In this document: one piece after another, positions 72 to 40,437 of the stretch | Numbering within the stretch: the first letter of the stretch is position 1 | Layout: each line of letters opens with the position of its first letter | Program-made: the position numbers and the translations under genes | Assembly: GCA_944387625.1 (NCBI GenBank) | Contig: CALXFQ010000009.1 | Span: 1-40,469 of the forward strand | DNA length: 40,469 nucleotides | Origin: an uncultured Oscillospiraceae bacterium | GTDB taxonomy: Bacteria; Bacillota; Clostridia; Oscillospirales; Oscillospiraceae | Reading direction: 5' to 3' | Notes under the pieces: model-generated | Seen by the model: only the letters and a program-made list of their open reading frames with translations | Databases searched by the model: none | Told to the model about the DNA's origin: nothing

Positions 72-73
72 GG

Positions 74-95
74 AGCCTCCCCTTCCGGGGAGGCT
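74..95. terminator. Hairpin next to repeat copy A, downstream of the PFL gene
   Basis: Perfect 9-bp stem AGCCTCCCC / GGGGAGGCT with a 4-base loop. On the plus strand it is followed by TTTTT; on the minus strand, where it would end the PFL operon, the U-tract is missing and the repeat element starts two bases later. This fits an ancestral bidirectional terminator interrupted by the element (inference). Confidence 0.65.
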
Positions 96-110
96 TTTTA
101 TAGGGGCGTG

Positions 111-15983: not shown

Positions 15984-16012
15984 TTGCTTTTCCCGTGCCC
16001 TTTGGATATAAT
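15984..16012 (+). promoter_or_regulatory. Promoter of the cysteine-rich peptide gene
   Basis: -35 TTGCTT (15984-15989), 17-base spacer, perfect -10 TATAAT (16007-16012). Confidence 0.82.
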
Positions 16013-16030
16013 AGTTCTGGACTACTATTA
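16009..16030 (+). promoter_or_regulatory. Inverted repeat over the -10 and start site (possible operator)
   Basis: TAATAGT (16009-16015), 8 bases, ACTATTA (16024-16030). It overlaps the -10 box and the expected transcription start, so a repressor site is plausible. Confidence 0.5.
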
Positions 16031-16045
16031 GGAGGTTACGCCACT

Positions 16046-16357
16046 ATGAAAGCTGTTAAGATCATCCTGAAGATCCTGACCGCCCTGGCCGCCGTTGCCG
16101 GTGCTGTCTATGTGATCGCCAAATACGGTGACAAGATCGTGTCCTGGGCCAAGGGCCTGCTTGGCTGTGACGAAGACGAGTGCGAGTGCTGCGAAGACTG
16201 CGACGGCGCGTGCTGCAAGGAGTGCGAGTGCGCCGACGAGTGCGTCTGCGCCCAGAACGCCGACCGGGCCGACGAGGACGTGACCGTGGAGGAAGTGCCT
16301 GTAGAGGAAGCGCCGGAAGAAGGCGTAGTAGCCTCCGAGGCAGATTTTGAAGGCTGA
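16046..16357 (+). CDS. Membrane-anchored cysteine-rich acidic small protein
   Basis: I do not recognise a named family. The 103-residue product has three parts: an N-terminal hydrophobic helix (MKAVKIILKILTALAAVAGA and on to about residue 25), a segment starting GLLGCDEDECECCEDCDG with 11 cysteines in 28 residues, patterned CxC, CC and CxxC among Asp/Glu, and an acidic tail rich in VEEVPVEEAPEEG. The pattern suggests metal or cluster binding tethered to the membrane (inference); disulfide-rich structure is the alternative. GGAGG 10 bases before the ATG sets the start. It is monocistronic, with a strong promoter, an operator-like repeat and a strong terminator, so probably well expressed. Confidence 0.8.
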   Translation: MKAVKIILKILTALAAVAGAVYVIAKYGDKIVSWAKGLLGCDEDECECCEDCDGACCKECECADECVCAQNADRADEDVTVEEVPVEEAPEEGVVASEADFEG

Positions 16358-18089: not shown

Positions 18090-19403
18090 ATGGATACCTA
18101 CGAAGAACCCCGTCTGGACCCGGAGAACGGCGCGCCGGACGCGTCCGCCCAGGACCCCGCGCCGGAAGCTGCCTGGCAGCAGCCCCGGACAAACGACTAT
18201 GCCCCTCCAGAGCCCCCACAGGCCCCCAAGCGCGCCCGGTCACGGACCGTGCTTTGCCTGGCGCTGTGCCTGGTGATGGTGGTGGTGGGCTGCGGCATCA
18301 CCGGGGCGGTGGTCAGCCGCCATTGGCAGGAGGAGAACCGGCTCCTGCAGCTCAACTTCCAGGACCGGCTGGACGCCCTCCAGTCCCAGATCGACCAGGC
18401 CCCCGGCGACGGCACCGGCGATTCCACCTCCGGCACCCCCAATACCGGCACCGAAGGCGGCCTGACCCCTGCCCAGGTCTTTGCCCGGAACGTTCAGAGC
18501 GTGGTGGCGATCAAGACCACCGGCACCAACACGGACAGCGGCCTGCCGGTGACCTTCTCGTCCTCCGGCTCCGGCTTCATCCTCACCCAGGACGGCTTTA
18601 TCGCCACCAACTACCATGTGGTGGAGGGGGCCAGCCAGATCACCGTGGCCCTGGCCGACGGCACCGAGCATAACGCCTCCTATATCGGTGGGGACCAGTC
18701 CAACGACATCGCCCTGCTGAAGATCGAGCTGTCCGGCCTGCAGCCGGTGACCATCGGCCGCTCCAGCGAGCTGATCGTAGGCGACCAGGTGGCCGCGATC
18801 GGCGACCCCTTGGGCGAGCTGTCCAGCACCCTGACCGTGGGCTTCGTCAGCGCCAAGGACCGCCTTGTATCCGCGGAAGGCACCCGTATCAACATGATCC
18901 AGACCGACGCGGCGATCAACTCCGGCAACTCCGGCGGTCCTCTGTTCAACATGAAGGGCCAGGTGATCGGCATCACCACCGCCAAATACTCCGGCACCTC
19001 CACCTCCGGCGCCACCATCGAGGGCATCGGCTTCGCCATCCCGATCGATGACGTGTATGGGATGCTGGAGGATCTGCGGCAGTTCGGCTATATCACCGGC
19101 GCCTACCTGGGCGTCACGGTCTCGGACATGGACCCCACCCACGCGGCCCTTTATGGTCTGCCCATGGGCGCCCTGGTCCGGGAGGTGACCGACGGCAGCT
19201 GCGCCCAGGCCGGCGGCATCCAGGCGCAGGACATCATCGTGGAGCTGGGCGGCTACAAGATCGAAAGCCTGAACGACCTGACCCGGGCCTTGCGGCAGTT
19301 CAAAGCCGGGGATGAGATCTCGGTGGTGGTCTACCGGCACAGCCAGGGCGGCCAGAAGATCTTGTCGGTGACCCTGGACGAAAAGCCCCGCCCCCAGTCC
19401 TGA
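18090..19403 (+). CDS. HtrA-type membrane-anchored serine protease
   Basis: The 437-residue product is a Bacillota HtrA/DegP-like quality-control protease (S1C). A Pro/Ala-rich cytoplasmic stretch (1-52) leads to one membrane helix near 54-75 (TVLCLALCLVMVVVGCGI) and a short coiled linker, then the trypsin-like domain with His176 (TNYHVVEG), Asp206 (NDIALLKIE) and Ser281 (GNSGGPL), and a C-terminal PDZ domain (AYLGVTVSDM to SVTLDEKP). The protease faces the outside and degrades misfolded surface proteins. AGGAGG precedes the ATG. The gene stops 18 bases before a terminator hairpin that has been split by repeat copy B. Confidence 0.95.
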   Translation: MDTYEEPRLDPENGAPDASAQDPAPEAAWQQPRTNDYAPPEPPQAPKRARSRTVLCLALCLVMVVVGCGITGAVVSRHWQEENRLLQLNFQDRLDALQSQIDQAPGDGTGDSTSGTPNTGTEGGLTPAQVFARNVQSVVAIKTTGTNTDSGLPVTFSSSGSGFILTQDGFIATNYHVVEGASQITVALADGTEHNASYIGGDQSNDIALLKIELSGLQPVTIGRSSELIVGDQVAAIGDPLGELSSTLTVGFVSAKDRLVSAEGTRINMIQTDAAINSGNSGGPLFNMKGQVIGITTAKYSGTSTSGATIEGIGFAIPIDDVYGMLEDLRQFGYITGAYLGVTVSDMDPTHAALYGLPMGALVREVTDGSCAQAGGIQAQDIIVELGGYKIESLNDLTRALRQFKAGDEISVVVYRHSQGGQKILSVTLDEKPRPQS

Positions 19404-19420
19404 CAAGTCTTTTTCCCAGT

Positions 19421-19449
19421 GCGCTGTCCCCTCCCGGGGACAGCGCATT
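19421..19449 (+). terminator. Left copy of the duplicated htrA terminator hairpin
   Basis: Intact 11-bp stem GCGCTGTCCCC / GGGGACAGCGC with a 4-base loop, but followed by ATTAGATC instead of a U-run, because repeat copy B begins here. Its last 26 bases (19424-19449) recur at 19802-19827 with one mismatch. Confidence 0.75.
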
Positions 19450-19801
19450 AGATCAACCTGTCGAACCCCCCCTCGGGTCTTTTGTACCAAGCCCCAACAT
19501 TTTGCCCACCCACTTGCCTCCCCCTTTGGGGGCTGAGCGAAGCGAAGTCGCGGTAGTGAATGACGGTCCAGTGGACCGTCAGAGCCGCGACCGGGGCGCG
19601 CCGCAGCGCGCTGGCACGGCGAACGCCGTGACGGAGAGGGTGCCAGCGTTGGTTCTTGCATAGCGTCCCCAAAATACGGAACGCCGCGACCCTCTCAGTC
19701 ACGGCCCCTGCGGGTCCGTGCCAGCTCTCCCAAAGGGAGAGCCAAGGGCGTTGGGTGGGATGGTGAACGTAATACAACGGCCCATCAGGGCGGGGCCGAG
19801 C
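19450..19801. mobile_element. Copy B of the terminator-associated palindromic element
   Basis: This fills most of the 491-base gap between htrA and the LCP gene. No convincing protein frame is seen. The left end reads AGATCAACCTGTCGAA. Arms with ACCCACTTGCCTCCCCC at the left and CCAAAGGGAGAGCCAAGG at the right form a large imperfect inverted repeat around a centre with AGAGGGTGCCAGCGTT. An 83-bp palindromic module lies in the left arm (19535-19617). The last 50 bases before 19801 differ from copy C. Flanked by 26-bp direct repeats derived from the terminator. No transposase is encoded, so it would be non-autonomous. Confidence 0.75.
19535..19617 (+). repeat. 83-bp palindromic module, copy in element B
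   Basis: Begins GAGCGAAGCGAAGTCGCGG, with inner palindromes GACGGTCC/GGACCGTC and GGCGCGCC, and ends GCGCGCTGGCAC. Its reverse complement lies at 40237-40318 with one substitution and one 1-base gap. Confidence 0.9.
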
Positions 19802-19831
19802 CTGTTCCCTCCCGGGGACAGCGCATTTTTT
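19802..19831 (+). terminator. Right copy of the duplicated htrA terminator hairpin
   Basis: Stem CTGTTCCC / GGGGACAG (one G-U pair) followed by CGCATTTTTT. It has the U-tract that the left copy lacks, but its outer left arm is lost. Confidence 0.75.
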
Positions 19832-19835
19832 GACC

Positions 19836-19864
19836 TTGATTTTGAAGAAAGATCGTCGTATGAT
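19836..19864 (+). promoter_or_regulatory. Promoter of the LCP gene
   Basis: -35 TTGATT (19836-19841), 17-base spacer, -10 TATGAT (19859-19864), immediately after the right terminator copy. Confidence 0.7.
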
Positions 19865-19894
19865 AAAAGAAAATGATTTTTGGAGGCGTTCTCC

Positions 19895-20950
19895 ATGGAA
19901 AAGAAGAAAATGCCCCGTTGGGCGAAGATCGTGCTGATCGTGATCGCGGCGATCCTGGCTTTGCTGATGATCCTGGCCGGCGCGGCGGCGATCTATATAG
20001 ACGCGCTGCTGGGCAAGATCAACTATCGGACCACCCATCCCTCCCTGACGCCTGAGGAAGCCTCCTCGGTGGCCCAGGAGAACTGGGAAACGATCCCCTC
20101 CGACGACACCACCCCCATGGCTGACGATGTCACCGAACCCACGGCCCCCACCGCCACCGACCCGGTGGAGGAGGATCCGGATATGTCCCACATCGTCAAC
20201 ATCCTGCTGATCGGCCAGGACCGCCGCCCTGGAGAAGGGACCCAGCGGTCCGACTCCATGATCTTGGTGACCTTCAACAAGAGCACCGGCAACATCACCC
20301 TGACCTCGATCATGCGGGACCAGAACGTCCACATCCCCGGCTACGGCAGTGACAAGCTCAACCACGCCTACCAGTACGGCGGTATGCCTCTGCTGGACCA
20401 GACCCTGTACGATCACTTCGGCATCGTGGTGGACGGCAACGTGGAGGTGGACTTCTCCGGCTTCCAGCAGGTGATCGACCTGCTGGGCGGTGTGGACGTG
20501 ACGCTGACGGAGGCGGAAGCGGAATACCTGCGTAACGGCTGTAAAATGGACGTGCAGGCAGGCTTGAACCACCTGGATGGCGCCGGGGCCTTGAACTACG
20601 CCCGGCTCCGGGAGATCGACAGCGACTACCGCCGGGCCAGCCGCCAGCGGAACGTGCTGATCGCCATCTTTGAAAAGTACAAGTCCAAGGACCTGGCCAC
20701 CATGCTCTCCCTGATGGACCAGATCCTGCCCCTGCTCACCACGGACCTGTCCAAGGACCAGATCGTGGGCCTTGCTCTGGAGGTCTTCCCCATGCTCGCC
20801 GGCGCTCAGATCGATACCCTCCGCATCCCGGCGGACGGCACCTTCCAAAGCGGCTATGTCCAGGTCTCCCCCACCTATCGCACCTGGTATCAGTACAACA
20901 TCGATTTCGAGGCCAACCGCAAGCTCCTGGAGGAGATCTTCGCCCCCTGA
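19895..20950 (+). CDS. LytR-CpsA-Psr (LCP) family cell-wall glycopolymer ligase
   Basis: The 351-residue protein has a short basic start (MEKKKMPRWAK), one membrane helix at about 9-33 (IVLIVIAAILALLMILAGAA), an acidic Thr/Pro linker and an LCP domain beginning near HIVNILLIGQDRRPGEG. Conserved LCP features follow: RSDSMILVTFNKSTG, ITLTSIMRDQNVHIPGYG, KLNHAYQYGG and the Arg pair in YARLREIDSDYRRASRQR. LCP enzymes transfer teichoic acids or other glycopolymers from lipid carrier to peptidoglycan outside the cell. GGAGG 8 bases before ATG 19895 is preferred over a TTG five codons upstream that overlaps the site. Confidence 0.95.
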   Translation: MEKKKMPRWAKIVLIVIAAILALLMILAGAAAIYIDALLGKINYRTTHPSLTPEEASSVAQENWETIPSDDTTPMADDVTEPTAPTATDPVEEDPDMSHIVNILLIGQDRRPGEGTQRSDSMILVTFNKSTGNITLTSIMRDQNVHIPGYGSDKLNHAYQYGGMPLLDQTLYDHFGIVVDGNVEVDFSGFQQVIDLLGGVDVTLTEAEAEYLRNGCKMDVQAGLNHLDGAGALNYARLREIDSDYRRASRQRNVLIAIFEKYKSKDLATMLSLMDQILPLLTTDLSKDQIVGLALEVFPMLAGAQIDTLRIPADGTFQSGYVQVSPTYRTWYQYNIDFEANRKLLEEIFAP

Positions 20951-38795: not shown

Positions 38796-40022
38796 ATGGA
38801 ACACGATACCCTTTTGGATATGGCAACGGACCTGGGCTATGAGCTGGCTATGTGCGGCGCGGAGACCTTCCGGGTGGAGGAAACGGTCCAGCGGGTGATG
38901 GACGCCTACGGCTTCCGGGCGGAGGTCTTCGCCATCCCCAACTGCCTGATCGTGAGCATCGAAACAGACATCGGCAAGCCCCGGACCCGGATGCGCCGGA
39001 TCGGCATCCACGGCAACGACCTGGACGGGGTGGAGCTGTTCTCCGGCCTGAGCCGGAAGATCTGCGCCCAGCGCCCCGCCCCGGCGGAGGCTGTGGCCTG
39101 GCTCTCAGAGGCCCGCGCCCGGCGGCGGTACTACCCCATCCCGATCCGCCTGCTGGGCCACTTTCTGGGGGCTTTCGGATTTAGTATGCTCTTCGGCGGC
39201 AGCGTGACCGATGGGCTGTGCAGCGGCCTGTGCGGCCTGCTGGTAGGCGCGGTGGCGCTGTTTCTGGACCGTCAGCAGGCCAGCCAATTTTTCAAGATCC
39301 TGGCCGCCTCCTTCCCCATGGCGTTGCTTGCCTATGCCCTGGCGGCGGTGGGGATCGCGGAAAACGCGGACATGGTAACGATCGGGGCGTTGATGCTCCT
39401 GGTGCCGGGACTGCTGTTCACCAACGCCATGCGGGACATCATCTTCGGGGACACCAACTCCGGCGTCAACCGGATCGTCCAGGTGGTGCTGATCGCGGTG
39501 GCGATCGGCCTGGGCACCGCCGCCGCCTGGAACGCCGCCGCCGCGCTGTGGGGCCCCCCGGTAAGCCCCCAGACCACCATGGGCGGCCCGATCACCGGCC
39601 TGGTCCCCTGCCTGATCGGATGCCTGGGCTTTTGTATCGTGTTCAACATCCACGGCTGGGGCATGGCCCTTTGTGCCGCCGGCGGGATCTTGTCCTGGGG
39701 GATCTACAGCGGTGCCGTGGGACTGGGGATGAACGACCTGGCCGCTTACTTCTGGGCCACCATCGCCGCCGGGGCGTACTCGGAGATCATGGCCCGGATC
39801 CGGAAATTCCCGGCGATCTCCTACCTGGTGGTGTCGATCTTTCCCCTGATCCCCGGTGCCGGGATCTACTTCGCCGTGGACCATGTGGTCCATGGGCAGA
39901 TGCGGCTGTTCGTGGACCAGGCGATCCACACCGCCGCGGTAGCCGGTGTGATGGCGGTGGCGATATTGCTGGTGTCCACCCTGGCCCGCCTGCTCCTGTC
40001 CCAGCGACCCAAGAAAAAATGA
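38796..40022 (+). CDS. Threonine/serine exporter (ThrE) family protein
   Basis: The 408-residue membrane protein joins the two ThrE halves, which in many Bacillota are separate genes. An N-terminal soluble part (MATDLGYELAMCGAETFRVE, residues 1-115) carries the family motif ETFRVEETVQRVM; about five membrane helices follow (DUF1212 part), then the second part from about 270 with FCIVFNIHGWGMALCAAGGI and FPLIPGAGIYFAVDHVVHG (DUF3815 part). Members export threonine and serine with the proton gradient; the substrate is assumed from family. AAGGGGTG before ATG 38796 sets the start. The stop codon lies in a terminator hairpin interrupted by repeat copy C. Confidence 0.93.
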   Translation: MEHDTLLDMATDLGYELAMCGAETFRVEETVQRVMDAYGFRAEVFAIPNCLIVSIETDIGKPRTRMRRIGIHGNDLDGVELFSGLSRKICAQRPAPAEAVAWLSEARARRRYYPIPIRLLGHFLGAFGFSMLFGGSVTDGLCSGLCGLLVGAVALFLDRQQASQFFKILAASFPMALLAYALAAVGIAENADMVTIGALMLLVPGLLFTNAMRDIIFGDTNSGVNRIVQVVLIAVAIGLGTAAAWNAAAALWGPPVSPQTTMGGPITGLVPCLIGCLGFCIVFNIHGWGMALCAAGGILSWGIYSGAVGLGMNDLAAYFWATIAAGAYSEIMARIRKFPAISYLVVSIFPLIPGAGIYFAVDHVVHGQMRLFVDQAIHTAAVAGVMAVAILLVSTLARLLLSQRPKKK

Positions 40023-40046
40023 GCGATGCTTGGCATCGCTCATTTT
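40021..40046 (+). terminator. Left copy of the duplicated thrE terminator hairpin
   Basis: Perfect 9-bp stem GAGCGATGC / GCATCGCTC with loop TTG, then TTTT; it overlaps the thrE stop codon. Bases 40023-40046 recur exactly at 40410-40433. Confidence 0.8.
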
Positions 40047-40409
40047 AGACTGTCGAAGACCCCCTTCGGGACTTTTGTACCACGCCTCGACATTCTGCCC
40101 ACCCACTTGCCTCCCCCTTTGAGGGAGGTGGCAGGCCGAACGGCCTGACGGAGAGGGTGGCAACGTTCGTTTTTTTGTATAACGTTCCTCAAATGCGGAG
40201 CACCTCTACCCTCTCAGTCACGGCCCCTGCGGGTCCGTGCCAGCGCGCTGCGGCGCGCCCGGTCGCGGCTCTGACGGTCCACCGGACCGTCATTCACTAC
40301 CGCGACTTCGCTTCGCTCACCCCCAAAGGGAGAGCCAAGGCCCCGCTTTGCGGGGCTCAGCCAGTCGAAAGACCCAGCATTTTTCTGGACTTTTTCGACA
40401 GGCTGATGC
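40047..40409. mobile_element. Copy C of the terminator-associated palindromic element
   Basis: No convincing protein frame in this 363-base insert. The left end AGACTGTCGAA matches the reverse complement of the right end (AGCCTGTCGAA, 40404-40394) at 10 of 11 bases, giving terminal inverted repeats. The same core as copy B is seen (CTTTTGTACC, ACCCACTTGCCTCCCCC, GACGGAGAGGGTG, ACCCTCTCAGTCACGG, CCAAAGGGAGAGCCAAGG). The 82-bp palindromic module is in the right arm here (40237-40318). It is followed by a GCCCCGC/GCGGGGC hairpin and a terminal hairpin. Flanked by exact 24-bp direct repeats. Confidence 0.8.
40237..40318 (-). repeat. 82-bp palindromic module, copy in element C
   Basis: The reverse complement of 19535-19617 with one substitution (centre GGTCCGGTGGACC instead of GGTCCAGTGGACC) and one G missing. 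In element C it lies in the right arm, in element B in the left arm. Confidence 0.9.
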
Positions 40410-40437
40410 GCGATGCTTGGCATCGCTCATTTTTTTT
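40408..40437. terminator. Right copy of the duplicated terminator hairpin
   Basis: Stem GCGATGC / GCATCGC with loop TTG, then CTCATTTTTTTT. It has the full U-run but a shortened stem. On the minus strand it overlaps the stop codon of the partial gene entering from the right edge. Confidence 0.75.

Follow-up and report, generated by a model that had tools for sequence, protein, structure and literature searches.

The terminator hairpin of the htrA-type gene is present twice in the window (the whole stretch of 40,469 nucleotides analysed here, which is contig C9 of the host, a 1.65-Mb MAG of 125 contigs), once on either side of a short insertion (element B), and this repeat is a target-site duplication of a kind that is general to one clade of the IS1182 family. 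Duplication of the whole hairpin at the element tips is established for both autonomous and non-autonomous members of this clade, which share their ends and recur with the same outcome. Element B itself is most plausibly an IS1182 MITE, given that the ends of its family match those of autonomous IS1182 elements. The features concerned are collected in Table 1.

Table 1. Features of the htrA-LCP locus, element B and the other element copies in the window
Feature	Position	Strand	Basis
Third element copy, end only, cut by the contig start	1-71	+	
Terminator hairpin adjoining the third copy	72-100	+	
htrA-type serine protease gene, 5' of the split terminator	18090-19403	+	ORF list; htrA homologues beside LCP in relatives
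Left hairpin copy, full 12-bp stem, without U-run	19420-19447	+	folding
Target-site duplication, left copy as it survives	19424-19449	+	repeat search
Element B, 352-bp IS1182-type MITE, GC-rich, hairpin-rich interior, no gene of its own	19450-19801	+	
Element B, left terminal motif CCTGTCGAAC	19457-19466	+	
Element B, right end without the CGACAG tip, meeting the hairpin at AGC/CTGT (putative deletion point)	19784-19801	+	alignment with intact right ends of A, L035 and L034
Target-site duplication, right copy, stem shortened	19802-19827	+	repeat search, folding
U-run of the original htrA terminator, retained by the right copy	19826-19831	+	sequence
Sigma-70-like promoter match (by consensus only) 5' of the LCP gene	19836-19864	+	
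LCP-family gene, downstream	19880-20950	+	ORF list; homologues in relatives
Element A, left hairpin copy	40019-40046	+	
Element A, both IS1182-type tips present, core opposite in sense to that of B	40047-40404	+	
Element A, right hairpin copy with U-run	40406-40433	+	

Between positions 19200 and 20000 a repeat search returned a single family of direct repeats, consisting of two copies of 26 nt with one mismatch at a spacing of 378, and upon folding both copies are the htrA terminator hairpin, as had been claimed in the original prediction (25 of 26 bases matching). The left copy (-25.9 kcal/mol) has a stem of 12 bp (TGCGCTGTCCCC/GGGGACAGCGCA) rather than the 11 bp first proposed, and is followed by TTAGATCAA, with the U-run lacking as predicted. 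The right copy (-16.0 kcal/mol) indeed combines a shortened stem, of 8 bp (including one G-U pair) plus a bulged extension, with a U-run of six T's. It was also suggested that readthrough from htrA into the LCP gene may have changed upon insertion, which is unproven; strong readthrough would not be expected, since the right copy retains a terminator score and a promoter-like site lies between this copy and the LCP gene (the annotated start of which may be the ATG at 19895).

The spacer between htrA and the LCP gene was compared, as originally proposed, in relatives found via the LCP protein (for the most part MAGs of Oscillospiraceae from the gut of roe deer), which do not belong to the same species. 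In five of these the adjacency of htrA and LCP is kept while the element is absent, with a single hairpin in L052 and L054, and a single hairpin is likewise present in the spacer of L263. None of the relatives examined carries the element in this spacer, where there is one hairpin or none, and two ancestral hairpins lacking an element between them, the outcome that would have spoken against an insertion, were not seen. That the two hairpins simply flank unrelated DNA, being ancestral or the product of chance or of a tandem duplication, is conceivable in so far as terminators in GC-rich genomes are often similar hairpins, but it is highly improbable given these relatives and given that the same geometry, with junctions exactly at transposon tips, is found at many different hairpins. 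In fact, chance (already considered unlikely in the original prediction) can be excluded because this geometry recurs at element A, at further host copies and in related genomes.

Element A has the same arrangement as element B around a different hairpin, and the third copy abuts a third terminator. The idea that a terminator was duplicated at each of several independent insertions is supported, and it is general. The sequence of element B (19450-19801) matches 102 pieces in the host genome, and the copies at terminators end in inward-facing tips (AGNCTGTCGAA). As expected of a MITE, element B is short (352 bp), non-coding, present in many copies and flanked by a target duplication. Inverted tips at both ends are present in element A and L035, and absent in element B (which retains only the left tip of the IS1182-type ends) and L017; in the latter two we infer that the missing tip was lost through a microhomology deletion. 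The host harbours a second MITE of ~200 bp (L136, L138, L147, L158), which has the same tips and hairpin duplication around a different interior. This interior, which differs from that of B, is common to L080, from another species of the genus, where it is likewise enclosed by tips of this type and by a similar duplication.

The hairpin-rich core of the elements (CCCACTTGCCTCCCCCTATGGGGGAGGTGGC..., at 19505-19760 and 40106-40340 of the window) is also found with other ends in many related genomes (L063 and others), and looks like a separate repeat module to which, in this species, IS1182 tips would have been added. It occurs in successive repeats at L041 (G000:C36:12536-13218, with pieces ~100 bp apart) and L038 (G000:C60:7682-8215). 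Another set of short repeats (GAGTGCGAGTGCTGC...), at 16178-16251, lies inside the reading frame 15995-16357 and would encode a cysteine-rich stretch. No Rfam match was found anywhere in the window.

The link with IS1182 follows from the ends. The tip CAGNCTGTCGAAAA is common to the MITE family and to autonomous IS1182 elements of related genomes, which were recovered as elements with matching ends in a search of these genomes with the IS1182 transposase model. The left tip of element A is as in the IS, and its right end aligns nearly identically over ~30 nt with the end of the IS at L109. For the transposases of L109, L110, L114 and L115 the NF033551 scores are 385-401 bits (cut-off 270), and these proteins contain the DDE_Tnp_1 and DUF772 domains. 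In six autonomous IS1182 copies from six genomes (L086, which carries an in-frame stop, L087, L109, L110, L114 and L115) a complete hairpin of 25-35 bp is directly repeated exactly at the CAGNCTGTC ends; L252 and L253 share this terminal motif and the duplication of the whole hairpin. In the latter two, the IS end on the transposase side is itself a hairpin with a T-run, which could serve as a stop for transcripts entering from the split host terminator. The IS1182 transposase (NF033551) gave no match in the host MAG (G000), which says little because the assembly is broken at these repeats. For IS1182, the direct repeats given in ISfinder are 0-60 bp long, and the members of interest for comparison are those with CAGNCTGT ends.

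To what extent the tips are associated with hairpins was assessed by sampling them regardless of hairpins. In the host, AGNCTGTCRAAA gave 23 matches versus 4 for the reversed pattern, and among 400 genomes of the bacterial family CAGNCTGTCGAAAAA was present in 103, with a maximum of 33+43 copies per genome and mostly 0 for the reversed pattern. A hairpin (with a stem of at least 7 bp within the 45 nt beyond the tip) lies at 40 of the 50 sampled tips, versus 1.4% of shuffled flanks, and most of the tips that lack one look like chance motif matches. When all loci are pooled, a hairpin adjoins 103 of 127 tips, and for 35 of these 103 the second copy was recovered; some of the missing second copies are due to contig ends or decay. 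One of the 35 candidate pairs (L178), in all probability a chance hit, was excluded from the length analysis.

In the 29 pairs that are in direct register (some of which share a genome) the duplication measures 20-38 bp for hairpins of 18-34 bp, with the junctions 0-4 nt from the hairpin feet. The correlation between the two lengths is 0.91, part of which is built in by the procedure through which pairs are found. A fixed stagger is the norm for DDE transposases, but it is disfavoured here because the duplication lengths range so widely. Long target duplications are also made by other families, such as IS1202/ISNCY, where they are ~27 bp and thus near the 26 bp at element B; were the element moved by such a family, the hairpins would only reflect an intergenic preference. 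This is very improbable, considering that the ends match IS1182, that autonomous IS1182 copies give the same outcome and that the length varies with the hairpin; IS1202/ISNCY was rejected as the mover since no ISNCY transposase (ISNCY_2) is found in the host genome.

Duplication of the whole hairpin is likewise seen in IS1182 copies on Bacillus subtilis and Cetobacterium plasmids. Two ISEfa7 copies of Enterococcus faecium lack a duplicated hairpin, and L251 and L118 of Staphylococcus simulans have unlike hairpins on their two sides, which is taken to reflect recombination between copies. A tree of 31 IS1182 transposases (with long branches, and with IS1272 left out) places the hairpin-flanked ones together on a single side of a branch supported at 97/97, and copies of IS1182 whose ends are of the GGGGCTGT type do not lie at hairpins.

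Whether the ends of the elements act as inward-facing, insulating terminators was considered separately and rejected: such terminators were scored in 10 of 89 cases versus 0.16 for shuffled sequences, which is an enrichment, yet concerns a minority. Since the scan also missed both ends of element A and the left end of element B, insulation is not claimed.

The right end of element B deviates from the intact copies, which in the alignment end in ...GGGGCTCAGCCTGTCGAAAAGACCC...TTTTTCGACAGGCTG followed by the hairpin, whereas B reads ...GGGGCCGAGCCTGTTCCC. A similar right end is found in L017, with GCCTG. Probably, a later deletion between the CTGT inside the tip and the CTGT of the right hairpin took away the tip and the TGCG of the stem together. 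Judging from these two cases (B and L017), the shortened right stem is probably later damage and not part of the insertion, and the original duplication at B was probably ~30 bp. The original prediction, in which the insertion split one terminator into two imperfect ones, thus holds for the insertion, but the shortened right stem need not come from the insertion itself and fits a later deletion.

For the mechanism, the sequences point to recognition of the target as a cruciform, strand transfer at the hairpin feet and, at element B, the later deletion. The ancestral site would have held one intact TGCGCTGTCCCCTCCCGGGGACAGCGCATTTTTT between htrA and LCP, which the DDE transposase of an autonomous IS1182 would have recognised as a hairpin or cruciform. 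The element ends would then have been joined at the two hairpin feet, on opposite strands and ~26-30 nt apart, after which gap repair would have copied the whole hairpin, giving one copy per side with the U-run on the downstream copy only. Finally, deletion between the CTGT repeats would have removed the right tip of B and 4 nt of the right hairpin. Taken as a whole, this account (a hairpin-targeting MITE of the IS1182 clade, joining at the feet, gap repair and CTGT deletion) is considered highly likely.

Several points weigh against it: the host MAG gave no match to the IS1182 transposase, B itself is missing its right tip, the two ISEfa7 copies have no doubled hairpin, and a second copy was recovered for only 35 of the 103 hairpin-flanked tips. 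Moreover, in some pairs (L114, L162, L200, L222 and L247, and by eye L025) the loop is inverted between the duplicated copies while the stems match, which goes beyond plain gap filling and may reflect cruciform extrusion during insertion, or later template switching. Such extrusion or template switching at some stage would also suit a different course of events, in which the hairpin was at first replaced or cut by the insertion, and repair from another template, or recombination, then gave rise to the two copies. There is a precedent in the same family in IS1272/TnSha1, for which loss of hairpin sequence without any duplication is reported (PMC4923244, PMC5678879). Nevertheless, this course of events seems unlikely, since in most pairs the two copies are directly repeated and share one asymmetric loop, as staggered transfer and gap filling predict, and since staggered transfer does not need a donor for the second copy. 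Returning to staggered transfer, it is an even call whether the transposase of this clade generally targets the extruded hairpin or cruciform and joins at its two feet, such that the length of the duplication (20-38 bp) is set by the target structure and not by enzyme geometry, and many Oscillospirales terminators have so been doubled by IS copies and MITEs.

One branch of IS1182 appears to insert in this way in many gut bacteria, and a clade in which the length of the duplication follows the hairpin offers a natural system in which to test structure-directed DDE transposition; IS1272, a family member that deletes hairpins, stands in contrast to it. Genes are spared at this landing site and both sides end up with a hairpin, which may explain the high copy numbers in small gut genomes. 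In addition, the hairpin-flanked copies explain a class of repeats at which MAG assemblies break.

Insertion at intrinsic terminators is also known from group IIC introns, but these retroelements are ribozymes that insert without target duplication (and the window lacks Rfam matches). The autonomous IS1182 copies with CAGNCTGTC ends have the terminal motif and the whole-hairpin duplication in common with the elements described here, and differ in being ~1.5-1.6 kb and encoding a transposase, while element B is 352 bp and geneless. Bacterial MITEs in general (reviewed in PMC10969869) are likewise short, non-coding and multicopy with inverted tips and a target duplication, whereas here an entire terminator hairpin is duplicated and the length varies. 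For whole-terminator duplication, the only relevant papers in the open-licence literature were those on IS1272 (PMC4923244, PMC5678879). In staphylococci, IS1272/TnSha1 target hairpins, mostly confirmed terminators, with no primary sequence consensus (PMC4923244, PMC5678879), and the IS1182-family transposase and stem-loop target are shared with the present elements. The difference lies in the outcome, because with IS1272 the stem-loop is partly or wholly lost (PMC4923244, PMC5678879), while here the whole hairpin is found on both sides and no loss of the stem-loop is seen. For IS1272 it was proposed that the stem-loop is lost when the 3' feet are attacked, with duplication of the whole stem-loop upon attack at the 5' feet as a hypothetical alternative (PMC5678879); the copies described here behave like the 5'-feet branch drawn in that paper.
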